From a virus, in IMG/VR virus record IMGVR_UViG_3300030329_004935, positions 1-54,928 of that record: a DNA stretch of 54,928 nt; one strand, given 5' to 3'. Below the pieces are notes generated by a model. It saw only the letters and a list, made by a program, of their open reading frames with translations, was not told where the DNA came from and searched no databases. The position numbers were made by a program, and so were the translations under genes. Shown here piece after piece: positions 31,909 through 53,021 of this stretch; within the stretch, counting starts at the first letter, position 1, and the number at the start of each line of letters is the position of its first letter.

Positions 31909-32151
31909 ATGAGTGAAGCGGCTTATGTCGTGTTCATCTCCCTGAAGGAGGAGGGGAAGGTCAACGATCATCCCCTAGCTCCACTTGATACGGAGATAGA
32001 AGCACGTGCTTATAGAGATGGATATGTAGACGCGATTGTTAATCATACTGATAAAGCAGATCGTGCAGAGGTTTTCGGACTATTTGGAATAAAAAGAGTT
32101 GGAGAAGAATTAATAAATAATAATAAACAAAAAGGAGATGAAGATGCCTGA
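31909..32151 (+). CDS. Small hypothetical protein upstream of the ubiquitin-like gene, 80 aa
   Basis: MSEAAYVVFISLKEEGKV suggests a strand-rich start, followed by DTEIEARAYRDGYVDAIV and a helical tail. It overlaps the ubiquitin-like gene by 8 bases, so it may belong to that cassette. GGAGAT is upstream. Confidence 0.6.
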   Translation: MSEAAYVVFISLKEEGKVNDHPLAPLDTEIEARAYRDGYVDAIVNHTDKADRAEVFGLFGIKRVGEELINNNKQKGDEDA

Positions 32152-32368
32152 TATAAAAATACTAGAAGGTGGTGGATTTGTAGATCATACAGTACAATCT
32201 ACTACAGTAGGCGGACTTAAAACAGAAAAAAGCATACCAAGTGGTGCAGCTATTTCTGTCGGAGGAAGGACAGTCGGAGATGATCATCAGTTAAATGATG
32301 GTGATTTGGTGGCTGCGGTACATAATGATAAGACTGGTGGAATAATACATTTAGCGCCATTGCTATAA
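32144..32368 (+). CDS. Ubiquitin-like beta-grasp protein with maturable C-terminus, 74 aa
   Basis: The start chosen is ATG 32144 (AGGAG six bases upstream). The sequence has the beta-grasp order: a first hairpin (DIKILEGGGFVDHTV), then TVGGLKTEKSIP as the helix region, AISVGGRTVGD and a DGDLVAAV strand. It ends NDKTGG (G65-G66) followed by eight residues, IIHLAPLL. A diglycine followed by a short tail is the pattern of ubiquitin-like precursors, which a peptidase trims before E1 activation. The following genes encode E2, JAB and E1 homologues, which is the strongest support. ThiS/MoaD-like sulfur carriage is less likely, because an E2 gene is present. Confidence 0.7.
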   Translation: MPDIKILEGGGFVDHTVQSTTVGGLKTEKSIPSGAAISVGGRTVGDDHQLNDGDLVAAVHNDKTGGIIHLAPLL

Positions 32369-32385
32369 ACTGGTCTTGATCACGC

Positions 32386-32450
32386 TTAATATTTGTTGGG
32401 AATCAACAGAGATGCGGGTAATGCTACACGGGTGTCGTGTCAAATATTAA
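32386..32450 (+). ncRNA. Structured RNA element C, three-branch leader
   Basis: TTAATATTTG (32386-32395) pairs perfectly with CAAATATTAA (32441-32450). Inside are TTG/CAA (32396-32398 and 32404-32406), a GC/GC pair around a GGGTAAT loop (32414-32424) and ACACG/CGTGT (32426-32430 and 32436-32440). AGGAG follows six bases later. It lies within the conjugation cassette, between the ubiquitin-like and zinc-ribbon genes. No known riboswitch consensus was recognised. Confidence 0.5.
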
Positions 32451-32466
32451 TTAAAAGGAGATGAAT

Positions 32467-32649
32467 ATGATATTAAATGAAGAGGAATTACATGATTGTC
32501 CTAATTGTGGAAGAGAGGAGTCTATGATGGAAGTATTATTTTCTGATGGATATCCTGATCCACATGGAGAACCAGGATTATTATGTTATCAATGTGGTAA
32601 TAAAATAGGAATAGAAGATATGGATGGAGGTTATGATGATAGAATATAA
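32467..32649 (+). CDS. Zinc-ribbon protein of the conjugation cassette, 60 aa
   Basis: The start chosen is ATG 32467, with AGGAG six bases upstream. DCPNCGRE and LLCYQCGNK give two CxxC pairs about 26 residues apart, a classic zinc ribbon. Between them lies a Gly/Pro/Asp-rich loop. It sits between the ubiquitin-like and E2 genes and overlaps the E2 start by 14 bases. It could act as an E3-like adaptor or transcription factor, but it is too small for a RING and lacks the eight-ligand pattern. Confidence 0.6.
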   Translation: MILNEEELHDCPNCGREESMMEVLFSDGYPDPHGEPGLLCYQCGNKIGIEDMDGGYDDRI

Positions 32650-34048
32650 TACAGAAGATTCCTTTGAACATTGGAATCCAAATATTCAAGGCCTTGCAGA
32701 TCGGCTATTAATAGGTCCGCAAAGAGAATTGTTAAGAAAAGTGCAAGATTTTAATCGTAGATATGATACAAACCTAAATGTTACAAGAACATATCGCTGG
32801 TCACCAGGATATATGGATCAAATTAAAGAATTTATGGTTCATAGATACCTAGAAACTCATATGAAACGTAAAATATCTACATTTTTCAATCAAATTGACA
32901 ATAAATCTTGGATGTTGGGTGGATTTTCGAGAACATTAAGAGAAATTGAAACTATCTTAGCTGAAAAACGAAGAACTAGAGCCGTATTTCAAGATAATTC
33001 TGATATAATAGAGGATAGATGGCAAATATTGCACAATATTATCGTAAGAGAAACAAATAAAGTAAGAAATACTATGGAACATATTAGTTTTGACTGTGAT
33101 ATCATAGCAACTCAGTATGGACAACATACAATATCATTTACATGGGCATTTCCAGAGATGGATATGAATATATTTGTAGGTAATCAATATTATTTTCCTG
33201 TAGAGATGGGTAAAGTTGAAGTTAATATAACATTTGATATAGATCAGATTGTTACTCAATTATGTAATGACTTTTCTGTCGAGTTTGTAACTCTAGGAGA
33301 TGATGAGAATTGTGGAATCAGATTTAACAATTTATCTAATAGCAATGGATATGGAAGAATAGCTGCATGGTATGACCCTAAATATACTGGGGGTAATAGC
33401 ACATTGCAACATCCATTTATTAGCTCATATCAAAATGATTTAAGAACAATCGACGGTAACGGGTTCACTAGTACCTGTTTAGGTGATTTAACAGGCAGAT
33501 TATGGTCTGAATTATCAAAAATGGACTTACTTGCAGTAACATTAACATTACAACAATGGTTAACGACATTTAATGCAAGAGATACTAGGCCATTAAATAA
33601 TATCAGACAAGCTTTCTGGGGTTTACCAGAGCGCCTTAATGATCCTACATTTCTTAATGTATATCCAATGAATGCAGATCAATGCAATTATCCTTCACGA
33701 GAGATAGAACATTTTGAAGATAGAGAAGATGCTATAAGTTCTGGATTTGACAATGATTATTGCAATACAATAAATTGTGGATTAAAAGGTGAATGTTGGT
33801 ACTATAAATTCATTGAAGGTATATCTGATGAAACGGAAGAAAGATTTCCTGAAACAACAGAAGCTTTACGTGATATAGCGGCTGAAAGTGAGCAAGCATT
33901 CACTGAAGAAGATTTACCTTTTGAAGTTAATAGAGATGAAGTAGATCCAATGAGCGTTCCATTACCTGAAGATCCATTAACTGAAGAGCAAATGGTAGAA
34001 CAATTAATTAGACAACAATATCGAGTAGTCGATATAGGAAGGGAGTAA
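32636..34048 (+). CDS. E2-like ubiquitin-conjugating protein with extra domains, 470 aa
   Basis: The start chosen is ATG 32636, with GGAGG five bases upstream. Residues ~150-310 follow the E2/UBC plan: beta strands, then HPFIS (H259-P260), a G-x-G turn, TSTCLGDL with candidate catalytic Cys281, a Trp-rich LWSEL stretch, and the helix DLLAVTLTLQQWL ending NARDTRPL. This aligns with HPNI...CL...W...LL...PL of E2 enzymes, which carry the ubiquitin-like protein as a thioester. Residues 1-150 are a helical domain. A Cys cluster (DYCNTINCGLKGEC) near residue 385 and an acidic tail follow. The architecture resembles prokaryotic E2/RWD proteins. Confidence in the E2 module is good, in the rest low. 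Confidence 0.7.
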   Translation: MIEYNTEDSFEHWNPNIQGLADRLLIGPQRELLRKVQDFNRRYDTNLNVTRTYRWSPGYMDQIKEFMVHRYLETHMKRKISTFFNQIDNKSWMLGGFSRTLREIETILAEKRRTRAVFQDNSDIIEDRWQILHNIIVRETNKVRNTMEHISFDCDIIATQYGQHTISFTWAFPEMDMNIFVGNQYYFPVEMGKVEVNITFDIDQIVTQLCNDFSVEFVTLGDDENCGIRFNNLSNSNGYGRIAAWYDPKYTGGNSTLQHPFISSYQNDLRTIDGNGFTSTCLGDLTGRLWSELSKMDLLAVTLTLQQWLTTFNARDTRPLNNIRQAFWGLPERLNDPTFLNVYPMNADQCNYPSREIEHFEDREDAISSGFDNDYCNTINCGLKGECWYYKFIEGISDETEERFPETTEALRDIAAESEQAFTEEDLPFEVNRDEVDPMSVPLPEDPLTEEQMVEQLIRQQYRVVDIGRE

Positions 34049-34049
34049 T

Positions 34050-34925
34050 ATGGCAGAGTTTTATATAGAAAAAGAAGACTGGGATAAGGTTATATCATAT
34101 GCACAAGCTGCATGGGATGAACATAACTCAGAGATAGGTGGTATGATGGTAGTAGTAAAAGATGAAGATGATGACTGGCAGATACAAGATCCAGTGATAA
34201 TGAAACAACGGATTAGTGCAGGTAATACTCATTTAGACAAAGAAGAGCTAGCTAAATATTATACTAAAGCAGCTATAAAATATAAAGACAATGAGTTTAG
34301 ATTCTGCTGGTGGCATAGTCATCATACAATGGGAGCCTTTTGGTCTGGGACAGACACAGATACAATAGATGAATATAGTGATGGAGACTTTAGCTTTGCT
34401 TTAGTTGTTAATCTTAAAGAAGAATATAAGTTTAGAGTATCTGTATGGAAACCAATAGAAACTCATGAAGATGTGGAGCTGGTAATACTAAATGATGAAA
34501 GAAAAGTAAGTAAATCAATTATTAATGAGGTAAATAAGCTATGTGAGAAAGAGTCATATGCTATCTCTAAAGGTATAGTTAAACCTAGTAATTACAATAA
34601 CTTACATCAAACAACATTATGGAATCAAAATAAGATAATTCGTCCTGATGAAGATAAAGATTACAATAAAGTATTAAGTGCAATCGAAACTTTAAATACT
34701 AGATTAATTAAAGGAGAAATAGAATATATTGATTACTTTAATCGAATTACAGATATTAACCATCAACTTACAATCGAAGGCTCTGATTATCAAATAAGAG
34801 TAATAACAGAAGCAGATCAAGAATGCTTAATGTATCTCAGTGCATGTGATTTCATAGAAGCACATGAGGATATAATAGATGTAGATTCTTGGAATGCTTC
34901 TTTCGGATTAAGAGGAGGGGCTTAA
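34050..34925 (+). CDS. JAB/JAMM isopeptidase-like protein, 291 aa
   Basis: The metal site of JAMM peptidases is complete: E28 (SEIGG), H89-S-H91, S99 and D102, spaced exactly as H-x-H-x7-S-x2-D. These enzymes cut isopeptide or C-terminal peptide bonds of ubiquitin-like proteins. Residues 1-140 form the domain, and 150-291 is a helical extension (HLDKEE... is inside the domain, WDKVISYAQ at the start). GGGAG precedes ATG 34050. The stop overlaps the E1 ATG. It is expected to trim the IIHLAPLL tail of the ubiquitin-like precursor and to reverse conjugation. Confidence 0.85.
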   Translation: MAEFYIEKEDWDKVISYAQAAWDEHNSEIGGMMVVVKDEDDDWQIQDPVIMKQRISAGNTHLDKEELAKYYTKAAIKYKDNEFRFCWWHSHHTMGAFWSGTDTDTIDEYSDGDFSFALVVNLKEEYKFRVSVWKPIETHEDVELVILNDERKVSKSIINEVNKLCEKESYAISKGIVKPSNYNNLHQTTLWNQNKIIRPDEDKDYNKVLSAIETLNTRLIKGEIEYIDYFNRITDINHQLTIEGSDYQIRVITEADQECLMYLSACDFIEAHEDIIDVDSWNASFGLRGGA

Positions 34926-35584
34926 TGTTAAATACAAGATATTCTGATATTGTAAATAATACTGATCAGTTTGTCTTTCATATCTTAGGTTGCGGGGCTA
35001 TTGGTAGTTCTGCAGCCACACAGATATGTAGGATGGGTGGAACAAATTTTATCTTATACGATTATGATAAAGTAGATATAGTTAATATAGGTGTATCTCA
35101 ATACAATAATAGTGATATAGATAAATACAAAGTAGATGCATTAGAAGAGCATCTAAAAGCTATTAATCCTATAATAGATGTGGATAAATTCAATGAACGA
35201 TTTGAACATTATTCACCTAGAAGCAACGATATAGCTATATTGGGATTTGATAGTATGGAAGCAAGATTAGAAGCAGTAATAATTATGTGTAAGATCAACA
35301 GTGTCAAGCCTAAGTTCATTATAGATGGACGAATGGGAGCTGAACATTATCAACAGTATATATTTGATAATCCAACAGTCAATAAATATAAGAAGGAATG
35401 GTACTCTGATGAAACAGGTAGTGTAGATCCTTGCAATGCAAAAGCTACATCTTACTGCTCTAATATGAGTGGATCATTTATTGCAAATGCTGTTCGGAAA
35501 CTAATAACAAACCAACCATATAATAGGAAATTTTCTTTTAATTTTCCAATAATGGGTTTGGAAAAGTCCCGAATGTCGTTGTAA
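34925..35584 (+). CDS. E1/ThiF-like adenylyltransferase, 219 aa
   Basis: The start chosen is ATG 34925, with AGGAGG upstream and overlap with the preceding stop (TAATG). The Rossmann ATP-binding signature is GCGAIGS (22-28), followed by acidic D46 and D48, an N54, DKYKVDAL (K69) and D109, in the order of E1/ThiF/MoeB proteins. C170 (DPC) and C178 are candidates for the thioester cysteine. At 219 residues it is a minimal single-domain E1 without a UFD or zinc CxxC pairs. It would adenylate the trimmed ubiquitin-like protein and hand it to the E2. Confidence 0.85.
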   Translation: MLNTRYSDIVNNTDQFVFHILGCGAIGSSAATQICRMGGTNFILYDYDKVDIVNIGVSQYNNSDIDKYKVDALEEHLKAINPIIDVDKFNERFEHYSPRSNDIAILGFDSMEARLEAVIIMCKINSVKPKFIIDGRMGAEHYQQYIFDNPTVNKYKKEWYSDETGSVDPCNAKATSYCSNMSGSFIANAVRKLITNQPYNRKFSFNFPIMGLEKSRMSL

Positions 35585-35784: not shown

Positions 35785-36261
35785 ATGTCCGAAGAAGTTC
35801 AACAACCTGTTGAAGAAGATATTCTGACCCCTGAATATATATCTATTGATGACTGGAAGTCCAATAAAATAGATAAGTTAGCTGGTGCATTAGCTAAAGC
35901 ACAAAGCGAAATGGGTGGAGTATCTAAAGGTAAAGTTAATCCATTTTACAAAAGTAATTATGCAGATATTAATTCATGTATAGAAGCATGTATGCCTGCA
36001 TTAAATAAACATGGATTATCTATAAGTCAAGGTAATAGATTCTGTAATACTAGTGGTTACTATATAACTACTATGTTAATGCATGAATCAGGTCAATGGC
36101 TACGAAGTGAAATAAGAATTCCTCTTACTAATAAGAAGGATGCACAAGAGATCGGCAGTGCATGCACTTATGGTAGGAGGTATGGATTAACATCTATGGT
36201 GGGCTTAGCTCAAGTAGATGATGATGGAAACGCAACTGTAAATAATAGGAGTGTAAAATGA
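35785..36261 (+). CDS. ERF-family single-strand annealing protein, 158 aa
   Basis: The pattern matches ERF recombinases: LAGALAKAQSEM, NPFYKSNYADI, HGLSISQG, LMHESGQWL, GSACTYGRRYGL and DDDGNA in order. These proteins anneal complementary single strands during replication-linked recombination. Length is slightly short for the family (~170-200). AGGAG is upstream. The stop overlaps the SSB-like start by 4 bases. It follows RNA element D. Confidence 0.9.
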   Translation: MSEEVQQPVEEDILTPEYISIDDWKSNKIDKLAGALAKAQSEMGGVSKGKVNPFYKSNYADINSCIEACMPALNKHGLSISQGNRFCNTSGYYITTMLMHESGQWLRSEIRIPLTNKKDAQEIGSACTYGRRYGLTSMVGLAQVDDDGNATVNNRSVK

Positions 36262-36924: not shown

Positions 36925-38688
36925 ATGATTAAAGAGTTCGCCTTCAGTCTTAGTAAAAGACATTACTTTCAAGAAGCATCTGAAGAAAGTAATTGGCATA
37001 ATCTAGATAACGATACATTTATGTCATTATATGAATACGATGATCATGTTAAAGAGTTCTTTGCAAACAAGAAAACTTTAGCAGGGTATGACGGATTAAT
37101 ATATATGCCAAATGAATTCATTCTAGATGTAGATGGTAAAGACTTTAAGCAAGCAACAGATCTATCAATTGGCTTAAAGATATTATTGAGTGATTTAGAT
37201 ATACCATACAAGTTATTCTTCAGTGGTACAGGATTTCATTTCAATATACCAGCAGACGCATTTAGATGGAAACCAGATCAGAATCTACATTTAAAAGTAA
37301 AAGATGCACTAACTGCTGCAGGAGTATTTAAATATGCCGATCCAGCAGTGACTGATAAAATAAGGCTCATAAGGGTACCTAACACGAAGAATAGTAAGTC
37401 AGGGCTATATAAGGTCCAAATAGACACAAAGTGGCTAGAACTACCTGATTTAGAGCTTAAAATAAAAGAACATGCAAAACACCCTAAGGATATAAATGAT
37501 ATAGAAATGGAATGTAATCCAGTATTTGATGCGCTCACACGTGAGAAAAATAAGATAGCAAATACACCAGAGTTTATATCTCAAGGACGTACTCCTGATC
37601 CTGTTAATTATCCATGTATAAGCAGTATGTTAAACTCTATTCCTATGGGTAGAAGACATAGTGTCGCATTAAGATTAGCAGCATGGTTTAGATGGTTGTA
37701 TCCAGAAGATGTAGTAAGATTGATAATGGAGAAATGGAGAAGACAGGTAGATAATAGCCAGTCATCATTCAGCTCTAAAGAAATGGAAAGTATTATTAAT
37801 AATTGCTATGATGGTCACGGAGGACAAGGATATAGATATGGATGCACTGATCCTATAATGGATGAGTATTGTAAAAATACTTGTAGATTATATAAATCTA
37901 AGAAAGGTCAGAGCGTTATGGATTCAGCTGCTATGGAAGTTCATCTAATAGACTTCTTAAGATCTGATGCAAAACCTATTAACTTAGGAGATGTATATCC
38001 AGGGCAAGACTTTCCTATATATCCAGGTGAAGTTGTTATGATACAAGCTCCACCTAAGAGTATGAAGACTATGATTCTTCAAAATTGGATGAATGCATTT
38101 AAGAAACCTACTTATTTTATTGAGATGGAAATGTCTCCAAGACAAATATGGTCTAGGTTTGTTATGATAGAGATGGGATGGAATGAAGAGCAATTGAGAG
38201 ATCACTATCAACAAATGCAAAATGGTATGGATAAAAGATTTAAATGGTTAACAGTAGATTACTCTTCTCCTTATGCACAAGAGTTGGAGAAAAGAATATC
38301 TATGCTGCCAATTAAACCAGAGATAGTAGTAGTAGATCATATGGGATTATTTAAATCAAGCCAAAGAGATTCTAATATGAAGATAGAAGAAGCATCTCAA
38401 GCTATGATGGAGCTTGCAGTAAAACACAATGTGATAGTCTTTGCAGTAAGCGAGATAACAAAGCAAGCGTTCCATGAAGGCATGAATATAGCATCTTCTA
38501 AAGGTTCATTTAGAACAGCATATAATACTAATAAGTTATTATCAGTTAATCCTCAAAAGAGTTTATCAACTGGATTAATAGAACGTATTAATATTAAATG
38601 TGAAGCTAATAGAGAGAAAGAGAATATTAATGTTAACTTAAAAGTAAATAATACAAGGATATATTACGATGAAAACAGTACATTTTAA
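36925..38688 (+). CDS. Archaeo-eukaryotic-type primase fused to a RecA/DnaB-type helicase, 587 aa
   Basis: The start chosen is ATG 36925 (GGGAG upstream); the longer frame runs through RNA element E. Residues ~55-165 hold AEP primase motifs: LDVD (D68, D70), SGTGFH (100-105) and DKIRLIRVP (144-152). Four cysteines (C231, C307, C316, C320) in a PriCT/PriL-like arrangement follow and may bind a metal or iron-sulfur cluster. The C-terminal ~220 residues form a P-loop ATPase with APPKSMKT (K381-T382) as a degenerate Walker A and VVVDHMG (D471) as Walker B. It would both unwind and prime phage DNA. No DNA polymerase is encoded, so this enzyme may also extend strands or the host enzyme is used. Confidence 0.8.
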   Translation: MIKEFAFSLSKRHYFQEASEESNWHNLDNDTFMSLYEYDDHVKEFFANKKTLAGYDGLIYMPNEFILDVDGKDFKQATDLSIGLKILLSDLDIPYKLFFSGTGFHFNIPADAFRWKPDQNLHLKVKDALTAAGVFKYADPAVTDKIRLIRVPNTKNSKSGLYKVQIDTKWLELPDLELKIKEHAKHPKDINDIEMECNPVFDALTREKNKIANTPEFISQGRTPDPVNYPCISSMLNSIPMGRRHSVALRLAAWFRWLYPEDVVRLIMEKWRRQVDNSQSSFSSKEMESIINNCYDGHGGQGYRYGCTDPIMDEYCKNTCRLYKSKKGQSVMDSAAMEVHLIDFLRSDAKPINLGDVYPGQDFPIYPGEVVMIQAPPKSMKTMILQNWMNAFKKPTYFIEMEMSPRQIWSRFVMIEMGWNEEQLRDHYQQMQNGMDKRFKWLTVDYSSPYAQELEKRISMLPIKPEIVVVDHMGLFKSSQRDSNMKIEEASQAMMELAVKHNVIVFAVSEITKQAFHEGMNIASSKGSFRTAYNTNKLLSVNPQKSLSTGLIERINIKCEANREKENINVNLKVNNTRIYYDENSTF

Positions 38689-40730: not shown

Positions 40731-43700
40731 CTAAAATTGATTTAATGATTGTAATACTTTTCGTTTTTGCTCATCCTCATTAACCTTCGCTTTATTCTTT
40801 GCCTTCCTAGCTTCATATTTCTTCTGTTTAACAAAAGGATCTCTACCAGTCCATCCTTTCTTTGAATAACCTATTTTCTCAGCTATATCCCTCTTGCTTT
40901 CAGCTGCCCATTTTGATATCCATCTAGGCTTATATAGTCCAGTTTCAATACGAATAGCTTGCGGTATATCCCCTCGCGCTAAGGCTGGGATTGTATGCCA
41001 TATCGTTCTTGCAGCAGCAACATTAAATATTCTAGCTACTTGATATCTCCATTGCCAGTTAGAAGGTTCATAATTTAAATGTTTTCTTTTTGCATATTGA
41101 TCTGAAGTAAGATTAAGAAAATCAAATAATTCAGCTACAGTAAATAGATCACTGACAAATGGACCCATATTAGATATGATAGGACCCTTTCCAAAATAAC
41201 TACCATATAATTTTTCTTCTTCTGCTGGAGTTCCTGATTCACGATCTGCTCCCATAAAATCAATTAACTTATTAGCCTCTTCTATGATAGGATTATCAAT
41301 CAGTCCTCCTTTAGATCCACTTATAAACCTTCCTTCGTCTTCTCTAGTGCCTGGCTGATAGCCTATAGTTGAGAATAGTCCTCCTACCTCTATATCAAAC
41401 AGATACGCTGCAAGACCACCAAGCATACTGTATACCATACTCATTCGAGATAGTTGTTGAAAATTTGAATTAATTCGCTTCTTCCCAGTATATGGATTAA
41501 TTTCAACTATATTGAAATCCTTAACGTCTCTAGCAACATTTCTAACAAGTTGATAATTTAAATCAAAAAATGCAAATTTAAAATGTTGAAATTGACCAAT
41601 AGTTTTACCACCTCTACCTTGAAGTATTTTAGCTTTAGCCCAATTATCATAATCAAAATGTAATTTTTTAACCATTTCTAATGCTATATTTCCAGCAGCA
41701 TTTTCCATGGCATCATAAACTTCAGTATCAGTAGGCTGTTTCTTTTTTGCTTTAGTTAGCTTATCTACCCAATAACTATGTCTTTTCTGTTCTAATGTAA
41801 ATGCATGAGCAAAAGCCATTTTAAATGTTTTAAGCCTATTTTGATTTTCAGCCCATTGTTGAGAGTATCTTTGTCCAAGCATCCCAAATGTGAGCACTGT
41901 ACCAGTAGTATATTTAGAAGATAAATCAGCTAACCAGCTCATATTATCTGCAGCTCGTGCTAAATTTGATTTTTTACTAGCATGAACTAATGCTCCTTCT
42001 GCATTTACTGTGAAACCTTTAGGCACCATTATTACATCTAATGAGCCAGCTGTTGCACTAGATATACTAGCAGCATCCCCAACAGTTGAGCCTTTTTCTC
42101 CCATCATCATACCCATGCGACGAAGTTGTCGCTCAACCATCATTGAATTAGTAACTTCTTTTTCTCCCCTTGTAGGATCATATGGTCTATCTGTCCCTTC
42201 ATAAAACTTTCTAGACCTATAATATCCCATTGAGCCAAACTCTATCCAATTCCAAAATCCTTGCGTTCTATTTTTAAGGCCTGACTTTAAACTAAAACCT
42301 AATTTAGACATATATTCAAATCCGTTAATCAATCTTATTGCATGATCCACTTCGGTAAGCGAACCTTTATAATTATTAATAGCAGAATCACGAATTTGAG
42401 CCATAGTATTAATCATTTCATTAGCATAACTTCCAATTTCTTTAGATTCTTCAGACCCTTTCCAACCACCTGTATTGATTTTTCTAGTAGCTTCTACTAA
42501 TGATTTAATACCATCTATATATGCATACTGCACTCTTGCTTTAAAGTTACTACTAGCTACATCATGCACATATTTAGTTAAATAATGTACTGGATCTAAA
42601 CTCCAATATTTACTATCATCAGCTGCCTGTTTTAATCTCTTAGCTACATTGCCTGGTTGTAAATCAGCTATTATAGTTTGCTCTAATTGCTCAGGAGTAA
42701 GATTATCATACTGAACTCTATCTTTATCATTGGCAAATTTTGTAATATTATTCATAATATCTGTCATTTCTAACACCAACTTTGGAAAATACTTTTTAAT
42801 ACCAGTAGCTAAAACCATCTCTCCAGTATGAGGGTCTTCAACTTTATACTTTTCAATTACACCAGTCCTAGGATCAACAACCTCTAAACCATTCTCCCAA
42901 CTCTGCTCCCAGCCTGCCTTTTCTGGATCATTCTTAATCTGCTTCATATCAATATTACCCTGTATCAAAAGAGCATCTATTTCTTTTTGTATTCTCTCTA
43001 TAGAGCGTACAATAAAGTCTCTCTCTACGGGATTATTTAATTCTTGAGCTATACGCTTTTGAGTTATACCAGTATTAATTAATGCTTTCATCATATCAGC
43101 TCTAAGCACATTCCATTTATTAAGAATAATCTTTTCAGTTGGAGTTAAGCCTGTTACTATAGTAAAATCTAATATGCCCTGATACCTTTTTAACACTTCG
43201 CCAGCATAACTAACTCCTGTAGTTCCTTCAGACATGTTCCATCCCGCCATTTGACTTAGCCTAGTCATAAGAGCATCATGCTTAACAGGGTCTACAGATT
43301 TAGGATTAAGCCATAGCTCACGCTCTAACTCTTGAAATTCTTTCAATTCTTTTTTGGTTAAATCCCTGCCCCATTTTTGATATAAAGGAGATTGCTTGTC
43401 TATAAACATTTCATATAGACCTCCTATCATATCATCAGTTAGTTTCTTGCCTTCCTTCATTAATCTCTGGTGATACGATGCGGCCTCCCCTACTCCTTGT
43501 ATAAATTTCTCTCCAAAAAATGTTGTACCTGTCAATCTTTTAGGTAGATAAAAGTTTCTTTGAATCCAATTTTGCTTCTTGCCAATACCATTTAAAAATA
43601 TACTTAAGCCTCTATTAAATCTCTTGATATCAGTTTTATGTATTTCTCGAGTACCCCAAGGAGATCCAGTGTATTTATTCCACAACCATTCAAACGTCAT

Positions 43701-43817
43701 TCTATCTGTAGCACCTATCATTTGAGCTTTAGGATCATTGATAAGTCTGTCCAGTCCATTCTCAATTATCTCTTTAACAAAAGCTTGTTGCTTTGGATCG
43801 TTTCCATTACAAATCAT
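40731..43817 (-). CDS. Large internal virion protein, 1028 aa
   Basis: The last gene of the leftward arm starts at ATG 43817 with GGAG upstream. The sequence is almost wholly helical and charged, with few cysteines and a Gly/Ala-rich hydrophobic patch near residue 790 (YSMLGGLAAYLFDIEV). Its very basic C-terminus (KYEARKAKNKAKVN) may contact DNA. Size and context, after two other internal proteins, match podovirus ejectosome components that are injected to form a channel. No catalytic motif was recognised. Confidence 0.65.
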   Translation of the reverse strand: MICNGNDPKQQAFVKEIIENGLDRLINDPKAQMIGATDRMTFEWLWNKYTGSPWGTREIHKTDIKRFNRGLSIFLNGIGKKQNWIQRNFYLPKRLTGTTFFGEKFIQGVGEAASYHQRLMKEGKKLTDDMIGGLYEMFIDKQSPLYQKWGRDLTKKELKEFQELERELWLNPKSVDPVKHDALMTRLSQMAGWNMSEGTTGVSYAGEVLKRYQGILDFTIVTGLTPTEKIILNKWNVLRADMMKALINTGITQKRIAQELNNPVERDFIVRSIERIQKEIDALLIQGNIDMKQIKNDPEKAGWEQSWENGLEVVDPRTGVIEKYKVEDPHTGEMVLATGIKKYFPKLVLEMTDIMNNITKFANDKDRVQYDNLTPEQLEQTIIADLQPGNVAKRLKQAADDSKYWSLDPVHYLTKYVHDVASSNFKARVQYAYIDGIKSLVEATRKINTGGWKGSEESKEIGSYANEMINTMAQIRDSAINNYKGSLTEVDHAIRLINGFEYMSKLGFSLKSGLKNRTQGFWNWIEFGSMGYYRSRKFYEGTDRPYDPTRGEKEVTNSMMVERQLRRMGMMMGEKGSTVGDAASISSATAGSLDVIMVPKGFTVNAEGALVHASKKSNLARAADNMSWLADLSSKYTTGTVLTFGMLGQRYSQQWAENQNRLKTFKMAFAHAFTLEQKRHSYWVDKLTKAKKKQPTDTEVYDAMENAAGNIALEMVKKLHFDYDNWAKAKILQGRGGKTIGQFQHFKFAFFDLNYQLVRNVARDVKDFNIVEINPYTGKKRINSNFQQLSRMSMVYSMLGGLAAYLFDIEVGGLFSTIGYQPGTREDEGRFISGSKGGLIDNPIIEEANKLIDFMGADRESGTPAEEEKLYGSYFGKGPIISNMGPFVSDLFTVAELFDFLNLTSDQYAKRKHLNYEPSNWQWRYQVARIFNVAAARTIWHTIPALARGDIPQAIRIETGLYKPRWISKWAAESKRDIAEKIGYSKKGWTGRDPFVKQKKYEARKAKNKAKVNEDEQKRKVLQSLNQF

Positions 43818-43829
43818 AATTTATCTCCA

Positions 43830-46800
43830 TTAACATCCGTATTGTTCCAATTCTTTCTTTAAAGACTCTTTTGCATTAGTATCTTTTAATTTATCTGAAT
43901 GTTCAAATATAGACTTCCTATAAGGCTTTCTAGGTAAAAACCAATGACCCTGAGGATCTATCTTGTAACCATCTACTCCCTGCCATAAAGACCTAACTCT
44001 ATCTCCTATTGTATGAGCATCAGGCATTTTACCCATAGAACTATTGCCTAACCCTGCACTTAGTCTATAAAGCTCAATAGGATCTAAAAAATAACTCCCG
44101 TTTAAATATGATAACATAATATTCTTTGCTTTCTCATTTAAATTAGTTGTTTCAACCCATCTTGGTAATGCATCTGGTTGAGACATAATACTAAAATCAT
44201 TATCTTTCCTTTTAGTATGCTGTAAATTGAAAAAGACATCGCCTTGCAATGTAGGGTCCCATTCACGTACAAATGCCGTTTTATGACGGTCAATTATATT
44301 TCTGTACCACTCCTCTGCAACAATATGATCTATTACCTGACTGCCCTTATCAGTCCTTAAACGATCAAGTACAGTAAATACTAATCTTTCATTAAGTTTA
44401 TTTGAATTAAAATGAGGCAATTTGCGAGATGTCCTAGTAATTGGATCATACTCAAGCACATCATAAACGCCTTGAGCTGCCTTAGGACTCAACATATTAT
44501 ATAAAAACTGCAAAGCAGCATCATTTCCTCTTAATGGAGATGTATTCATAGCTTCAAGTAAATGGTCTATGACAACTTGTACTTGAGCTTCAGATACCAA
44601 TCCAAATCTTTCTGATGTTTTAGGAGCATTCTGATCTATAATACTTGATGATGTTCTTAATTTAACATCAAACCTTCTTGAAACACCTTGTATAACAGCT
44701 ATATCAGATGGTGACAACGAAGGTATTTCGACTGCAAAAGCTCTCGACATAGCTCTTCTTTGCATGCTTGTATTAGGGTTACCCATTCTTAATACTTTAT
44801 AGTTAATAACAAACTGATCGCCTTTCTGAACAAAATCAGGTCGCTGTCCTTTTGTAGCATCCAAAACATTTATCAACTGTAACTGCCCATCTATCTCTCT
44901 ATAATGACCTACCTTGCCCCAAGACTGCGGTATAAATCTATTCCTTCCAGGTTGTAGCATTTTAACATCAGAAGGGTCAAGATTTGCAGGATTATTAACT
45001 TGTTTATTAAATTCATTTAAAACCTTTACTTTAAACTCATATTGTGCTTGTAAAGAATTGTATTGCGAGTGATTTGATTTTCCCGTAGATCGCATAAAAG
45101 ACATAGTATCTTCGATTTGAGATACTTCCCAGGATAAATAATTTAATTCAGCCCATTTCTTTTGATCTTTAATAATTAAAGAAATTGCTCTAGATATATT
45201 TGCATCACTTCTACTAGTAAACCCAGATAATAAAGAGCCTAATGACGTATCATAGCTAGGTCTATCGGAAAAATGCTTGCTAAGACCTCTCTCCATTGTA
45301 AGTAAACCTTTAATTAAAGGATGTTCAGATACTCCAGCTCCTTTAGGATTGGTGCCCAGGAATGACAATAATATATCTGACAAAATAAATAAATCATTCT
45401 TTTTAGCATTGATATATTGCCCCTTATTATCATAACCTTGCCAATCTAAACCTGCCCATCTAATAGAATTTTTAACATTTTGAAACCTACTAACCATATC
45501 ATAAAGTGACATCTTTCTACTAGTACCATCCATATAATTTTCTGTCATGCTAGCCATATCAAATATTGAACCTAAAGGATTTAAGACTTGTTTAATTAGC
45601 TTTTCTCGCATAGTGAATATCTCTACAGGTATTTCAGTAGTAGCCTTCCAATCTACTGATGTCCATTCGCCTTTAATTTTTTGTTGAACCTTTAACATTC
45701 CTGTCTTAGCATCATTCCATACAATATCTTGTAAATTCACATCATCTATATTGCCATGACGTTTATATATATCAATAGTTTCTTTAATTAAACTCTTCAT
45801 ATGACCTAAGCTATTCTTTAATGTTTTCTCGCCATTAAAAATTATTCTCCATTCTCTATTATTAATAACGCTACTAGCTAAAGAAAAATCATGTTGCTCA
45901 GATGAATACATTGTCCTATGTTTCCAAAGTTTATGCCCAGGTCTTTGAGCAACCATTGCTTGTAGTAAGAACGACTGAATAGCATGCTGCCTTACTAATA
46001 ATGGTCTTTTAGACTCTTTGTTTTTAATGCTAATAAAATAATCTTCTTTTAAATCAGGATTTTCTAATCTTACCTCATCTAATACGCGCTCGAAAATTCT
46101 AGTCGCAGGATCTATCATTCCTGTAACATAAAACATTTCTTCGACAACCGTCCCTGGCATTGCATGTATACTACTAGATTTATCTAAATCAAAATCAGCA
46201 TCTTGAGGGTCTATAACATCAAGCTTATTCATCTCGCTTACTGGGCCTCTTCGTTGGTCTATTAGTTTTTCTACCTTAGTAATAACCCAATCATTCAATC
46301 CTGCCTTAGGAGTTCGTAAATCAGTTGTTGATAGATGCACTCCTTTAAAAGCATTTGCATTACCTATTTTAATTGTTTTGGCCATAGAACTAGAAGAAGA
46401 ATTATTAAGAGTAATGTCTGTCAAATGCCCTACTTTAGAGTCTAAAATCTGTCCATCAATAAAGAGTGCTAAATCTCCCAATGTGCTAACTTTATTTTCT
46501 GAAGCTGATTTTAAAACAAATTGATACTGTTCTTTTATGTAGCTTTCAAACTTGTCCATCTGTTTAAAATGCTGTGGCTGACTTAAACTTCTTAGATGTG
46601 GTCCTAATATTCTTCCATCATGAGTGACAATAATATCGTGTCCTGGAGCAAACAACTCTTCTAATCCAAATTTCTTAATAACACCTTTATCCAAAGTAAA
46701 GATTAAGTTTAAACCTTGAGAAGCATCGCCTATAACACCATCTTTGCTAGCTATCAAATGCTTTTCTATATTTTTATTATATTGATTATAAGGAATTCCA

Positions 46801-49800
46801 GACCCTCCATAAGAAAGCTGAACTCCATCTGCTTGCCCTATTAAACCATATTTATCTGCATACCTGGTTCCATTTTGAACTCTAACAGGTAAAGAAAGGC
46901 CAAATCCAGGAGTCATAACATTATAAGCCCCATCTGTTAGAGTACTCGAGGCAAAGTCTCTTTTCCCTAAATATTCAGCATTTAGCATCTTCTCTATTTG
47001 AGGTCCCATATATTCAAATACTGGCAGACCTCCTGCTTGCAATATTCCTTCTACTCCAAGCAAGCGAGCTGTTAAATTACCATCTTCAGCATGTATAGCT
47101 CTTAATTGCTCAGCTACTTTTAAATATGTAAATGGATTTTCCCACATATGAGCATAACGATTCATCATATCAGCAACATTACCCTTGGCACTTGTAACTG
47201 ACTGTATAGCTCTTAATGCATCATTAGATAAAAAATTAGTATATCCAGAAGACATAGTGGCATCATGGGCTCCACTAATAGACTTAATAAAAATAGCCTC
47301 TCGTGGTAGTTCTATAATGTCTAATCTGTATGGACTTTCTTTAACTCCCTCTACTAAAACATCAATGTCTTCAGCCTTACTATCTTTAACATATTTGGAT
47401 TTTAAATCATGATTCCTAGATTCAAATTCAGTACTACCTGATTTTTTTCTAACATTCTTCTTAGCAGTACTACCAAATGCAATAGAGTCTACTAGATATT
47501 TGCCGTCAGCACCTTTCATAGCCGCATCCATGCTAGGATGATATGTATATGCAGTCTTTCCTTGGAATATTGTAATCTCTCCAGTGTCATAATTCGATTG
47601 TAAATGATTCTCTATAGGCTTAATAACAACATTAACGCCAATAATTTCCCCAGCAGCATCTCTAACAAACCACTCTGGATTACCACCCTTCGCCATTAAT
47701 TGTGCAACCATTTCTGGTAACGATAAATATGTTGATCCATTGACCTTTGATGCAGCAACAGGGCTGTAAAACTCTAAAATATCATCGGCTCTAGCTTCGG
47801 CATCTGCCTTCTTCATATTGAATTTGTCTACAAATTGTGCAACAAGCTCTTTTTTAGCAGATGTTTGAGTGTTGAAAAAATCAACTCCAGGACCTGTCTC
47901 ATCATTTATTATAATTTTTCTATGCTTAGTAATATTACCTTGCTGATCAAACATGTGATTATTAAAAATTTCAACAGCATTCCCTAGTCTATCAGATTTT
48001 GGTAACATTGTATTTAAGAATTCTTTGGCAAATAATAAATTTCTGTCATTTAATGAAACTCCAGATCTAGGACTATCCATTGTTTCATATTTCAATTCAC
48101 TTAAAGCATCTATTGGAGACATTTGTTTCAGTATCATATCTTGTACTGCATCTTGAGCTACATTCATCATTCTAGTGAATAAAACTAATTTCTTAATATT
48201 CGTAGCATTATTTTTAATAGTTGCATGCCCAGCAGAATTAATAACAGCATCAAATTGTTTAACCATATATTCGTTAACAATCGATTGAGCATTAGGATTG
48301 CCTTCAAAGATATTCAATAAATCTCTTCTAATTTCACTTTTAGGATCAGCCCAATGTCTCATAATTTGCACACCAGCACCTTTATGAACAAATATCATAG
48401 TCTTTCCATCGATCAATATAGGAAGGTATTTAACTGAACCATCATAACCAGTCCCAGCTAGCCTATGTTCAAACTCTTCAAGTAATAATTTATCTTCTCT
48501 TGACATCAATTCTTTTGCAGATATATCTATAAAGCTACCTTTAGCCATCTTGGCTTCCAATTGATCTAAGACGCTACGAGATAGCCTGGTAGTAAAGCCT
48601 CTATCAGTACCTATTCGACCTCCTGCTAATAATATAGATCCATCCATATGCCCTATACCTAATTTACGTTGAAGTTTATTGATACCAGTATCCCAATTAG
48701 ATATCTTTCCTTCACTTATATGCAATGTACCATTTTCAAAGATACCTATTGCAACTCTTTTCGAAGCCATACCTGAAACAAGAACAGCATAAGTATCTAA
48801 AACAAAATTCTCCCACCTTTCAGCTCCATCCTTTCCTAAATTAACCTCAGTCATCTTTTCAATACGAGATTTTTGTGATTCTAAAATTGGCTTAATAACT
48901 GTATCTACATAGCTCTTGACTCCAATAAATGTATCACTATTTGGATCAAGCACAGACGGATCTTTATAATATTCCGTTATTAAAGTTTTAGCATTAGCAT
49001 CCAAAGCAGCAATATCATTCAATAATTGTATAGGCTGCTTTTTAATTATTTCTAAAAAGTTCATATCGCCATTATGCCATCTACTTACATATTGATTATC
49101 TGATATACTGTGACTATGAGTCTTTAGCTGACCATTTCTATCTGAAAGTGCAATATCGTCAATTTGTTCTGCAATATAATCATTAAGAGATTTAATATCA
49201 GCTATATCAAGTTTTGCATTTCTCTCTCTTAAAGCTGTTTCAACAAACCCATCAAGTTTTTCTTGATATCTTATAAGACTTTCAGATGTAGTTAATGGAT
49301 CTACAGACAATTCATGAATAGTTTTTAAAAATTCAGATCTATTATTGATTAAAACTCGAAGTCCAACCATGTCTCTGTTGCTAATATACATTTGAATTAA
49401 AGTTTCTAATTGGCCTTGTGATTTTGATAAATCTGCAATAGCTATCTTAATATCATCCATTGCCTTTGCATCACCAGCTTGAAGTGCCTGAACTTCCATG
49501 TCTCCAGCTTTATTCAATATATTTTCAAGAGTTCCTCCCATGCGTCCAACGTCAGAAAGAAGAGAAGTAAATTCATGTTCATTAATCTTATTTACTTGAT
49601 TTAACATATCTCTCAAAACTTGTTTAATTTCACTTTTATTAATAAAGTCGAGTGAAGGCTTTAATTGTTCGCTAAAAGATATAACCGCACTTTGCTCGCT
49701 TAATTCATTTCGCAAAGGAGTTTCTATAAGCTTTTCATATGCATCGATTAATTCTATAGTATATCTATCTGCTTCGCTTAATCCTTCAGTTAAGCTATTT

Positions 49801-52800
49801 TTACCTTCTAATAATAATTCTCTTAAAGTCCTAGAAGTAACTAGTTCCACCCCTCCTCTTCTACGAACAGATAATGGATTATCTAACTCTAACGATTTAG
49901 CTATAACTCTTTTTAATCCAGAGCCTAAATTAGGATTCCCAGATATATCATCAATATATTTCTGATATACAAATTCTTTAAAATGGAAAAACTCATTTGC
50001 ATCAACAAATAAATTACCTACACCTCTAGAAGGATCGCTTACTTGCTCCATTATATTTTTTAGTTCTTTAATGCTAAGTTGGCGACTTCCTTCTGATGCA
50101 TGAGGATTTATCAATGCATGAATATGATTAAGATTATCCATGAATACTTGTAGTTCTGGTGGAATATCTGTAATATCAGTATCAGGTTTAAATTCAATTT
50201 TCTTAGTACCACCAAACCAATCTCTTAATTTAAGAAATACATCAGCTATTTGAGGATTTGTTTGCCGACCTGTTAAAATTTGATATGCAAAATCATGCCG
50301 CTGTATTCTATTTTGAGTTTGTATAGCACTCCATACAGCAGTTGAAGACATTATAGAAGGGTCAAAATACCCTTTATCTTTATCCCAGCCTGGTACAATC
50401 TGCCTCCAATTTGAACTAGTACTACCATCATTGAATACCATATCATGCATTCTTTCTGTATATGTATGATATATTCTATTAAACTTTTCCAATACATCTA
50501 TAGCATTTAATTCCTGACTTCTATATCTAGGTCCATATTCACCGATTCTTACAACGCCTGCATCTGCAGCATTTCTAATCATTTCAACTAATTGATAAAA
50601 TGCAGGCTCATAACTTGTTTCTCCTGCTATTTTCTGATTCCGACCTTTATCGAGAGCAGTTAATACACTAGTATGTATCTGTATTCTTCCGTCAGCACCT
50701 AGCAAATCTCCCGACCAAAGCCCCAAAGCATCAAGGCTTTCTCTTAAATACTCTTGAGTGAGATCTCTAACAACCCTTGTTACTTCATTAGCAGAATGAG
50801 ATCTTAAATGATTTAATGTATGTTCTACATTTTCGGCTGTTAAAGGTTTAGTCCCATCATCAACTTTAAAATCCTTTAATCTTCTAGCGAAATCCATAGC
50901 ATCCATTTCACTCATGGGTCTTAATATTTTACCTGAATTTCCAACTAGCATATGCGCAACAATAGTTTCAGCAACTACTTTCATTTCAATTAAATCATTA
51001 TATTCTGCCTCTAATTTTTTCCGTTCATCTCCAGTAGCTTTCTCCATTTTCTTGCGAACAACATCCACTCTATCTGCTATCCAATCTGTCCAATGCTTGG
51101 CATTTGGATCCGATTTAAGAACATCCATCATATCATTTGCATCAATAAAATCTTTAGTAACTTCTTTATGTAATGCAGCTAAATCTACATTGCCATTAAC
51201 CTTTTCTCGCTCAATACGATCTATCAAAGAATCGTCTGTATTATGTCTAAAGGTCTGTATCAATTGAAGGTCAGAATCTTTTCTTCCTATTTCAACCATA
51301 AATTTTTCCATTAAAGCAATCTCATTACCTTTAGCTTGCACTCCAGTTTGCTCAAAATATCTAGGGAACTTAGCAGGCTCTTGTCCCCTCATTCCTCTGA
51401 CTGGAGTACCTCTCTTCATATATGTCCAACCAACTAATTGATCAAATATCATTCTAGTTGCAGGATAATCTTCTGTAAACAATTGACGTTCTTCATGTGC
51501 TTGTTTCCACATAGGGAAGTTCATAATAGCAGACCCTAGCATAGCTCTTCTAGAAGATTCCCATCCATCTCTTAATATTTCTTTACTAAGATTCTTTATA
51601 GTCGTTGGTAATTCCTTTTGAAAATGTCTCATTGCATTAGTTAAAATTGCATCATCAGCCTCATTTAAGACGACTTTCTTCAATAACGTCTCACCCATAC
51701 CTTCAACTGATTTAAATATAGATGAATTCTTCCCAGATGTATCGAATATAGTAGTTAAAACAGATTGCTTTGCTTTTGGAGACATCTTGCTAATATCTTT
51801 AAAGTTATAGTATAATGCTTTAGTCATCTGCTTCATGTCATTTATCATACCTGAATGACCCCATACAACAGCTTTACCACCAGTTACAAATCTAGCTTGT
51901 GAAAGAGCACCTCCCAGTAATGCAGAATGCCATCCTCTGGACCATATAGACTCAAACTTCCACTCACTATCAGTTAATCGTTGCTGTTTAGCTACAAAAT
52001 CCGCTGCTTCACCCAATACAACACTATGAACGCTTAATAATGACGCTTCATACAATGCATTTCCAATTCTAGTTGCAACATTTTCTCCCCAAACATGCTT
52101 ATTCCAAGGGTTGTTGCCCCAAAACCCTCTATTCATCAATCTTTGCGTTAAATGGTGTCCAAAATTATGACTACGAGAACGTGACGCTGTATCCATTACT
52201 AATCGTACTGCATCATCTAATTTATCGCCTGTTAAGCCAAATATATCCTTTAGTTCAGTTTTTAATCGACTACTAGTATTTACAAGGATTGCAGTATCGT
52301 TTAATGGAGCATCGCGTAAAGCTTTTCTTTGAAAGAAATTGAGTACTGGCCAACTCTTCTTAAGTTCGCTTGAAATACCATCATCAATCGCATCTCTAGC
52401 AACATCTAAAAGTTGTTTGGAATTTCTTTTTGCAGATTCCTTAGTGATTAAATCAGGAGATGATTTAACTAATGCTGTAGCTACATCATCAGCATAATAT
52501 TTTATAGAACCTCTACCTAGTTGAGATGCCCATGAAAGCCCTTTACCTACTAAGCCAACACCAGAAATAAATCCAACTGCACTACCTAATGCATATCCTA
52601 AATTACCAGCTAATGATTCATCTTTCCAGTCCTGAGATCCAAAGAATTGACTAATTTCACCACCTGTACCAATGTCCATCACTGTAGGTATAATTGCAGT
52701 TTCAGCAGCACCCCAAACAGCATTGCCAAGAAAGTCCATAGCTGTACCTATTACAGGAACTTCCTCCCACGCATTAGGCTTCTGACTTTCCCTCATCTGA

Positions 52801-53021
52801 TTTTCTAATGCTCTTTGCTCATCATCAGCTTGTTTCTTTAATTTTAAATCATAATTTAACGAACCAAACGAATCATCATTTCCCTGTAAAGATGCATCAT
52901 CTTCTACTTCCAATAAAGATTGACCTGGAAGTTGGAAGTCATTAAAATTTGCCTTTAATCTTCTTTGCTTTATATTGGCATACGGACCATGTAAGGCATA
53001 GTTTATTATCTTTCTCCCCAT
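43830..53021 (-). CDS. Giant internal virion protein with RNA-polymerase-like DxDxD loop, 3063 aa
   Basis: The start is ATG 53021, directly after the previous stop. Residues ~75-160 contain a Gly-rich hydrophobic segment (LGYALGSAVGFISGVG). Residues 2236-2243 read R-x-P-x-x-G-x-N, and residues 2274-2281 read DADFDLDK, with D2276, D2278 and D2280. This matches the NADFDGD loop that binds Mg2+ in cellular RNA polymerases, and the DFDxDK of crAss-like virion polymerases. IFIK followed by GAHDAT near residue 1935 might belong to the second barrel. Large virion-packaged proteins with this motif would transcribe early genes on entry. The rest is helical with no known domain. The motif is clear; the activity is inference. 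Confidence 0.6.
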   Translation of the reverse strand: MGRKIINYALHGPYANIKQRRLKANFNDFQLPGQSLLEVEDDASLQGNDDSFGSLNYDLKLKKQADDEQRALENQMRESQKPNAWEEVPVIGTAMDFLGNAVWGAAETAIIPTVMDIGTGGEISQFFGSQDWKDESLAGNLGYALGSAVGFISGVGLVGKGLSWASQLGRGSIKYYADDVATALVKSSPDLITKESAKRNSKQLLDVARDAIDDGISSELKKSWPVLNFFQRKALRDAPLNDTAILVNTSSRLKTELKDIFGLTGDKLDDAVRLVMDTASRSRSHNFGHHLTQRLMNRGFWGNNPWNKHVWGENVATRIGNALYEASLLSVHSVVLGEAADFVAKQQRLTDSEWKFESIWSRGWHSALLGGALSQARFVTGGKAVVWGHSGMINDMKQMTKALYYNFKDISKMSPKAKQSVLTTIFDTSGKNSSIFKSVEGMGETLLKKVVLNEADDAILTNAMRHFQKELPTTIKNLSKEILRDGWESSRRAMLGSAIMNFPMWKQAHEERQLFTEDYPATRMIFDQLVGWTYMKRGTPVRGMRGQEPAKFPRYFEQTGVQAKGNEIALMEKFMVEIGRKDSDLQLIQTFRHNTDDSLIDRIEREKVNGNVDLAALHKEVTKDFIDANDMMDVLKSDPNAKHWTDWIADRVDVVRKKMEKATGDERKKLEAEYNDLIEMKVVAETIVAHMLVGNSGKILRPMSEMDAMDFARRLKDFKVDDGTKPLTAENVEHTLNHLRSHSANEVTRVVRDLTQEYLRESLDALGLWSGDLLGADGRIQIHTSVLTALDKGRNQKIAGETSYEPAFYQLVEMIRNAADAGVVRIGEYGPRYRSQELNAIDVLEKFNRIYHTYTERMHDMVFNDGSTSSNWRQIVPGWDKDKGYFDPSIMSSTAVWSAIQTQNRIQRHDFAYQILTGRQTNPQIADVFLKLRDWFGGTKKIEFKPDTDITDIPPELQVFMDNLNHIHALINPHASEGSRQLSIKELKNIMEQVSDPSRGVGNLFVDANEFFHFKEFVYQKYIDDISGNPNLGSGLKRVIAKSLELDNPLSVRRRGGVELVTSRTLRELLLEGKNSLTEGLSEADRYTIELIDAYEKLIETPLRNELSEQSAVISFSEQLKPSLDFINKSEIKQVLRDMLNQVNKINEHEFTSLLSDVGRMGGTLENILNKAGDMEVQALQAGDAKAMDDIKIAIADLSKSQGQLETLIQMYISNRDMVGLRVLINNRSEFLKTIHELSVDPLTTSESLIRYQEKLDGFVETALRERNAKLDIADIKSLNDYIAEQIDDIALSDRNGQLKTHSHSISDNQYVSRWHNGDMNFLEIIKKQPIQLLNDIAALDANAKTLITEYYKDPSVLDPNSDTFIGVKSYVDTVIKPILESQKSRIEKMTEVNLGKDGAERWENFVLDTYAVLVSGMASKRVAIGIFENGTLHISEGKISNWDTGINKLQRKLGIGHMDGSILLAGGRIGTDRGFTTRLSRSVLDQLEAKMAKGSFIDISAKELMSREDKLLLEEFEHRLAGTGYDGSVKYLPILIDGKTMIFVHKGAGVQIMRHWADPKSEIRRDLLNIFEGNPNAQSIVNEYMVKQFDAVINSAGHATIKNNATNIKKLVLFTRMMNVAQDAVQDMILKQMSPIDALSELKYETMDSPRSGVSLNDRNLLFAKEFLNTMLPKSDRLGNAVEIFNNHMFDQQGNITKHRKIIINDETGPGVDFFNTQTSAKKELVAQFVDKFNMKKADAEARADDILEFYSPVAASKVNGSTYLSLPEMVAQLMAKGGNPEWFVRDAAGEIIGVNVVIKPIENHLQSNYDTGEITIFQGKTAYTYHPSMDAAMKGADGKYLVDSIAFGSTAKKNVRKKSGSTEFESRNHDLKSKYVKDSKAEDIDVLVEGVKESPYRLDIIELPREAIFIKSISGAHDATMSSGYTNFLSNDALRAIQSVTSAKGNVADMMNRYAHMWENPFTYLKVAEQLRAIHAEDGNLTARLLGVEGILQAGGLPVFEYMGPQIEKMLNAEYLGKRDFASSTLTDGAYNVMTPGFGLSLPVRVQNGTRYADKYGLIGQADGVQLSYGGSGIPYNQYNKNIEKHLIASKDGVIGDASQGLNLIFTLDKGVIKKFGLEELFAPGHDIIVTHDGRILGPHLRSLSQPQHFKQMDKFESYIKEQYQFVLKSASENKVSTLGDLALFIDGQILDSKVGHLTDITLNNSSSSSMAKTIKIGNANAFKGVHLSTTDLRTPKAGLNDWVITKVEKLIDQRRGPVSEMNKLDVIDPQDADFDLDKSSSIHAMPGTVVEEMFYVTGMIDPATRIFERVLDEVRLENPDLKEDYFISIKNKESKRPLLVRQHAIQSFLLQAMVAQRPGHKLWKHRTMYSSEQHDFSLASSVINNREWRIIFNGEKTLKNSLGHMKSLIKETIDIYKRHGNIDDVNLQDIVWNDAKTGMLKVQQKIKGEWTSVDWKATTEIPVEIFTMREKLIKQVLNPLGSIFDMASMTENYMDGTSRKMSLYDMVSRFQNVKNSIRWAGLDWQGYDNKGQYINAKKNDLFILSDILLSFLGTNPKGAGVSEHPLIKGLLTMERGLSKHFSDRPSYDTSLGSLLSGFTSRSDANISRAISLIIKDQKKWAELNYLSWEVSQIEDTMSFMRSTGKSNHSQYNSLQAQYEFKVKVLNEFNKQVNNPANLDPSDVKMLQPGRNRFIPQSWGKVGHYREIDGQLQLINVLDATKGQRPDFVQKGDQFVINYKVLRMGNPNTSMQRRAMSRAFAVEIPSLSPSDIAVIQGVSRRFDVKLRTSSSIIDQNAPKTSERFGLVSEAQVQVVIDHLLEAMNTSPLRGNDAALQFLYNMLSPKAAQGVYDVLEYDPITRTSRKLPHFNSNKLNERLVFTVLDRLRTDKGSQVIDHIVAEEWYRNIIDRHKTAFVREWDPTLQGDVFFNLQHTKRKDNDFSIMSQPDALPRWVETTNLNEKAKNIMLSYLNGSYFLDPIELYRLSAGLGNSSMGKMPDAHTIGDRVRSLWQGVDGYKIDPQGHWFLPRKPYRKSIFEHSDKLKDTNAKESLKKELEQYGC

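Follow-up and report, generated by a model that had tools for sequence, protein, structure and literature searches.

What is known of ubiquitin-like (Ubl) protein conjugation in bacteria comes mainly from operons of defence. We compare here with these and other known systems a four-gene cassette at positions 32144-35584 of a 54,928-base IMG/VR virus record (IMGVR_UViG_3300030329_004935, hereafter the window), the sequence of which was analysed computationally throughout. The cassette encodes, in this order, a Ubl protein, an E2-like protein, a JAMM metalloprotease and a minimal E1, and we read it, with a probability of about 0.72, as a phage-encoded system for Ubl conjugation and deconjugation. 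Separate genes for a single-domain Ub-like protein, an E2-like protein, a JAB protease and an E1 are likewise found in the PRTRC operons of plasmids and other mobile elements, which we take to be row 6d of Iyer 2006. The Bil systems (BilABCD) also comprise four separate proteins (Ubl, E2, JAMM and E1); their Ubl precursor is trimmed by the JAMM protein, BilA contains a pair of Ubl domains, BilD is a large E1 in two parts and BilB carries a CEHH motif (PMC11354881). E1, E2 and JAB chemistry is shared by Bub and by the CBASS proteins Cap2 and Cap3, Cap2 being an E1-E2 fusion that conjugates cGAS itself rather than a beta-grasp protein (PMC10097602). The Caldiarchaeum ubiquitin/Rpn11 operon (PMC5654768) is cellular and archaeal and includes a RING E3 and a canonical E2. 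Bacterial Ubl-type operons were described by Iyer and others in 2006, together with the lambda-type tail genes TAPI and TAPK, which provide a phage-borne Ub-like domain and JAB (relevant passages of PMC1779556); a set of the window type is absent from those same passages. Neither ubiquitin nor ThiF is mentioned in the crAss papers PMC7886860, PMC6235969 and PMC10136315, and none of the open-licence papers searched was found to describe an E1-E2-Ubl-JAMM set encoded by a phage, an earlier report elsewhere being possible.

Set beside these systems, the window cassette differs from PRTRC operons in lying on phages, beside replication genes, and its proteins score 14.7 of 101.8 bits for PRTRC_A and 22.1 of 144.75 bits for PRTRC_ThiF, far below both NCBIfam cut-offs. 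The NCBIfam models of the PRTRC Ubl and E2 had no match in the cassette, and no other PRTRC genes were seen. Whereas BilA and BilD are a double-domain modifier and a large E1, the window has a single 74-residue Ubl domain and an E1 of 219 residues, and after Cys281 of its E2-like protein there is no Glu or His at the spacings of the BilB CEHH motif. Type II CBASS differs in gene architecture, since the window E1 and E2-like protein are separate genes, the modifier is a true Ubl and the cassette holds no cGAS, although Cap2 and BubCD are among the matches of the E1 profile. The lambda genes are concerned with tail assembly, have no E1 or E2 and occupy an unrelated position, while the Caldiarchaeum operon provides the nearest solved structures for both the window Ubl and the JAMM protein. 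We therefore do not class the cassette with PRTRC, Bil or CBASS; those of their defining features that were looked for are absent, Bil and Cap2 being judged from their published descriptions. It is best read as a variant among the bacterial Ubl operons (Bil, Bub, PRTRC, CBASS), and by analogy it may work as the PRTRC, Bil and CBASS systems do.

An earlier note on this DNA had claimed, at 32144-35584, a complete and tightly packed set of Ubl, E2, isopeptidase and E1 genes on a phage, adjoining replication genes. The genes are indeed there: all of the reading frames are open at the positions claimed, an ERF-type gene and a primase-helicase gene lie 3' of E1, and the same gene order recurs in other phages. 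Their reading as a complete set on a phage is well supported by this order, by the unchanging catalytic residues, by the Ubl model and by a second phage lineage that bears the block. Scanning IMG/VR with the E1 sequence gave 218 relatives and with an E1 alignment 385, and 43 E1 loci had at least 4.4 kb of upstream sequence. The order Ubl-E2-JAMM-E1 was present in 40 of the 40 loci where all four genes are visible, the remaining three of the 43 apparently being duplicates of a single phage, where an insertion moves the Ubl position outside the fetched stretch (E2 at 3-1748, JAMM at 5063); many loci share metagenomes and some are near-identical, so these are not counts of independent events. We call this first phage group marine as a convenience label only. 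The packing is tight, with median gaps of 2 bp between E2 and JAMM and -10 bp between JAMM and E1. Distance matrices of the other genes follow that of E1 closely (Mantel r of 0.88 for E2, 0.86 for JAMM and 0.76 for Ubl, with 0 of 500 permutations as high), and the four genes co-evolve. Comparison with the nearest relative gave nonsynonymous divergence (dN) of 0.05-0.21 against synonymous divergence (dS) of 0.38-0.89 across Ubl, E2, JAMM and E1, showing by computation that the cassette genes are under purifying selection. Among cellular genomes, a single pattern-based scan using the E1 alignment picked up two weak matches in Bradyrhizobium and nothing more, and plasmids gave no JAMM relative; both searches detect close relatives only, which makes such absence weak evidence.

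The modifier gene (32144..32368, + strand) encodes a 74-residue protein ending in NDKTGGIIHLAPLL, that is, K-T-G-G followed by an eight-residue tail. Its AlphaFold model has the order bb-a-bbb, with a predicted local distance difference test score (pLDDT) above 90 in most of the core, and the ubiquitin fold that the earlier note had expected is found there: the best match in the PDB is Caldiarchaeum ubiquitin (E 4.5e-4), followed mostly by folds of the NEDD8, SUMO, ubiquitin, ThiS and MoaD types. Pfam ThiS is matched by 15 of 33 family members (best 1.9e-5), K-x-G-G or R-x-G-G is present in all 45 relatives, and dN is 0.11 against a dS of 0.51 in the nearest-relative comparison. The modelled beta-grasp fold and the conserved C-terminal Gly-Gly place the window Ubl among the ubiquitin-like beta-grasp modifiers. 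The Gly-Gly forms the exact end of the protein in 14 relatives and is followed by tails of 1-126 residues in the remainder, which calls for a processing protease, as would be expected if the JAMM protein matures the precursor. The 291-residue JAMM protein (34050..34925, + strand; EIGG and HSHHTMGAFWSGTD) matches Pfam Prok-JAB at 2e-6, above the gathering score, and all of the ligands ascribed to it earlier are there, with E28, H89, S90, H91, S99 and D102 (the pattern Glu plus HSHx7Sx2D) invariant in 62 of 62 sequences. The best PDB match of its profile is the Caldiarchaeum Rpn11 homologue (6.6e-5). These matches assign it to the JAMM/MPN+ protease family, with a predicted role in both Ubl maturation and isopeptidase activity.

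The E1 gene (34925..35584, + strand) encodes a 219-residue protein with the motif GCGAIGSS and a candidate catalytic Cys170. It matches Pfam ThiF at 1.9e-18, above the gathering score, scores best against ThiF families in NCBIfam, and as a profile matches MccB, UBA5, UBA6, ThiF, Cap2 and BubCD in the PDB. GCGAIGS (GxGxxG), D46, D48, N54, K69, D109, R114, C170 and C178 are invariant in 35 of 35 sequences. On the strength of the family match, GxGxxG, the catalytic Asp and Lys residues and the candidate Cys, the protein is assigned to the E1/ThiF superfamily.

Between the modifier and the JAMM gene lies the 470-residue E2-like protein (32636..34048, + strand), which is laid out as an N-terminal helical region, a predicted UBC-like core with P260 (in HPFI), Cys281 (in TSTCLGDL) and W308, and a C-terminal site of four cysteines (C350, C376, C381 and C387). 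Cys281 is invariant in 47 of 47 relatives and is preceded by P-x-[ILV], in 32 of them in the version HPx[ILV], which occurs nowhere else in these proteins and in background reading frames at about 1.4% per 40 residues. The arrangement HPx[ILV]...Cys recalls the HPN...C block of UBC enzymes. An HPF motif in one crAss-type E2 (L277) lies outside the active-site position and was not used. Across 41 sequences Cys281, W308 and C350 are conserved throughout, C387 in 40, C381 in 37 and C376 in 34; the resulting pattern C-x25-C-x4-C-x5-C (residues 350-387, window 33683-33800) is a candidate zinc or Fe-S site, and we know of no such site in E2 enzymes. The AlphaFold model (pLDDT 80) runs from a helix through antiparallel strands, an insert, the HP loop and Cys281 to two helices. 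A Foldseek search of this model against viral models (BFVD) listed six near relatives and a weak partial match first, then Podoviridae ctQyH19 (probability 0.99), A0A1B0WLX5 (0.90) and a 435-residue protein of cr128_1 (0.85), whose length equals that of the gene in the E2 slot of that phage (L090:2258-3565).

A second lineage carries a related block. In tblastn of E1 against an annotated phage collection, the matches, at about 30% identity, were confined to crAss-like phages of Bacteroides, phages of Flavobacterium psychrophilum and a small number of others. Their block adjoins a DNA primase and comprises a Ubl-like protein, a protein of about 285-457 residues with C-x-G, a 'metalloprotease' and a 'thiamine biosynthesis ThiF', all four genes being present in the same order in 83 of the 83 loci from crAss-like and Bacteroidota phages with enough upstream sequence. 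Cultured carriers include crAss001 (gp79-gp76), DAC15 and the Flavobacterium Fpv phages, in which the block is labelled only "thiamine biosynthesis ThiF" and "metalloprotease". Profile comparison between the lineages by hhalign, in which E-values are for single comparisons and not database-wide, gave 1.3e-35 for E1, 2.5e-11 for JAMM and 9.5e-4 for Ubl; the E2-like profiles reached 5.9e-4 only with 74 crAss-type sequences at full length, and 0.04 with a trimmed core. C170 is retained in the crAss-like E1s and C178 is not. The crAss-type Ubl fold ends in K-x-x-K-S-G-A/G, and the long extension that follows calls for trimming. Judged by these comparisons and, independently of them, by the Foldseek match of the E2-like model to the cr128_1 protein, the crAss-like block is assigned as a distant homologue of the window cassette. 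In the Flavobacterium phage Fpv1 (L087:3653-5945), the JAMM gene is apparently split by an inserted antisense endonuclease reading frame (4169-4918).

The conjugation and deconjugation system that we propose is grounded in computed properties, namely the four genes, their invariant residues, the Ubl fold, the shared order, co-inheritance and selection. In such a system, whose genes would be expressed jointly, the JAMM protein would trim the tail of the Ubl precursor to expose Gly-Gly, and the minimal E1 would adenylate this end and load the Ubl on Cys170. From there it would pass to Cys281 of the E2-like protein, which would join it to target lysines, its large N-terminal and four-Cys C-terminal regions possibly choosing the substrate in place of an E3, and the JAMM protein could later take the Ubl off again. 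Several observations weigh against this reading. No E3 was found. The Arg of the E1 N-x-x-R-Q motif, which contacts ATP in MoeB-type enzymes, is absent in all sequences, being Ser in 34 of 35 (Ser58 in the window) and Gly in the crAss-like members; of the ATP-binding residues bearing on the earlier claim, GxGxxG, D46, D48, N54, K69, D109 and R114 are thus in place but this Arg is not, and the departure from the canonical motif is real. Among crAss-type JAMM-profile matches, 12 of 94 are without the full HSHx7Sx2D pattern, some of which may be fragments or split genes. For the E2-like protein, the His of HPx[ILV] is replaced by Phe or Tyr in 15 of 47 relatives, initial comparisons of E2 profiles across the two lineages fell short of significance (0.18 from 12 sequences; 0.06), and neither the window sequence nor the family members and profiles matched any E2 sequence family; Prok-E2_B sequences collected for a direct profile comparison were too few. 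Foldseek against the PDB places the UEV domains of TSG101 and Vps23 at the top and returns many such domains among the best 30, but the matches are weak (E about 1, probability 0.15-0.2), so that a UBC fold around Cys281 is favoured by the model and supported, but not proven. As the protein fits none of the known E2 families, we infer the label E2, and from the fold matches and operon context we consider it probable that it functions as one.

Within the marine group, sister phages whose primase is 56-60% identical are often without the cassette: of the 27 loci that extend 4.5 kb or more upstream from the primase, 12 have E1, and nine sister contigs of 27-54 kb have no E1 or JAMM anywhere. The cassette is lineage-specific. 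In four cassette-free sisters (L138:6036-7554, L168:4568-6098, L160:5548-7165 and L157:6045-7473) another gene pair occupies the slot before ERF; in all four the pair encodes proteins of about 140 residues (QGDVV...LAFGEVTGHTH) and about 370 residues, with no Pfam match above the cut-off, and it is possibly an alternative module. This patchy presence, with other genes in the same slot, agrees better with an accessory function, for instance in host takeover or counter-defence, than with a step that replication cannot do without. In both lineages the cassette lies beside replication genes, suggesting early expression, and we think it most likely that it acts early, on host or phage proteins that take part in replicating phage DNA or in defending against that replication.

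Other uses of the same proteins have to be weighed. In the main rival explanation, which we regard as unlikely, the ThiF-like E1 would thiocarboxylate the Ubl so that sulfur is delivered to a small molecule, tRNA or DNA, the JAMM protein would free the product as Mec+ does with CysO, and the 470-residue protein would be an acceptor enzyme and not an E2. The ThiS matches of Ubl members, the ThiF families that E1 resembles best and the missing E2 family match are all compatible with this, and ThiS/ThiF/JAMM sulfur operons are known (relevant passages of PMC1779556). However, none of the cassette genes was recognised as coding for a rhodanese, a sulfurtransferase or another protein of sulfur metabolism, the 470-residue protein has P-x-[ILV] (mostly HPx[ILV]) before its invariant Cys and UEV domains as top fold matches, and the nearest PDB neighbours of the Ubl and JAMM proteins are an archaeal ubiquitin and its Rpn11 homologue. 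Somewhat less likely again is a set of decoys that mainly disturbs host Ubl defences (Bil, Bub, CBASS Cap2) and does no conjugation of its own; the stripping of host tags by JAMM would be one such action. Carriage by only some primase-sharing phages (12 of 27 loci, with nine long sister contigs lacking it) is what an accessory trait of this kind would give, but all four genes travel together, constrained and with intact active sites, and a decoy would have no need of E1, E2 and modifier together. That the cassette is a degenerate or inactive remnant, carried without function, could be argued from the missing E1 Arg; as the catalytic residues stay invariant across deep alignments and each of the four genes has a dN well below its dS, we think it very improbable.

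We therefore return to conjugation and deconjugation as the preferred reading. If this is correct, phages turn Ubl chemistry to their own ends through a complete set kept in two lineages, and crAss-like genes labelled 'thiamine biosynthesis' or 'hypothetical' gain candidate functions. We think it more likely than not that a complete Ubl cascade with an unrecognised E2 branch is encoded by prokaryotic viruses themselves, crAss-like phages of the human gut among them, and serves to tag host or phage proteins during infection. With the cultured crAss-like and Flavobacterium phages, the idea that viruses tag proteins in bacteria can be put to a laboratory test.

Two further elements of the earlier claim fell away. 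A small Cys-rich zinc-ribbon reading frame (32461..32649, + strand, open) lies within the cassette and had been suggested as an adaptor. Homologues occur in only three loci, which rules it out as a conserved adaptor, and with a dN of 0.37 against a dS of 0.56 it is the least constrained reading frame of the cassette, probably lying outside the conserved system. The flanking RNA elements C and D that had been placed around the cassette are no more stably folded than shuffles of the same sequence (z 0.35 and -0.01) and have no Rfam match above threshold, and the intergenic sequences differ between the window and its nearest relative, so they were rejected as part of it; one of the relative's intergenic sequences (L003) does fold better than shuffles (z -2.0). 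In the gap between the Ubl and zinc-ribbon genes (window 32369-32460), the flank TTGATCACGCTTA is common to L002, the enclosed inverted repeat differing in sequence, and spacers of this kind may recur in these phages.

Downstream of E1, the ERF-type annealing protein (35785-36261) is followed by a 189-residue protein and then by the primase-helicase (36925-38688). Early-type genes occupy the + strand between about 29 and 39 kb, facing a structural block on the - strand with matches to terminase, portal and major head proteins. On the - strand, 43830-53021 is one reading frame of 3063 residues, and it is adjoined by a reading frame of 1028 residues (40731-43817) without a PHROGs match.

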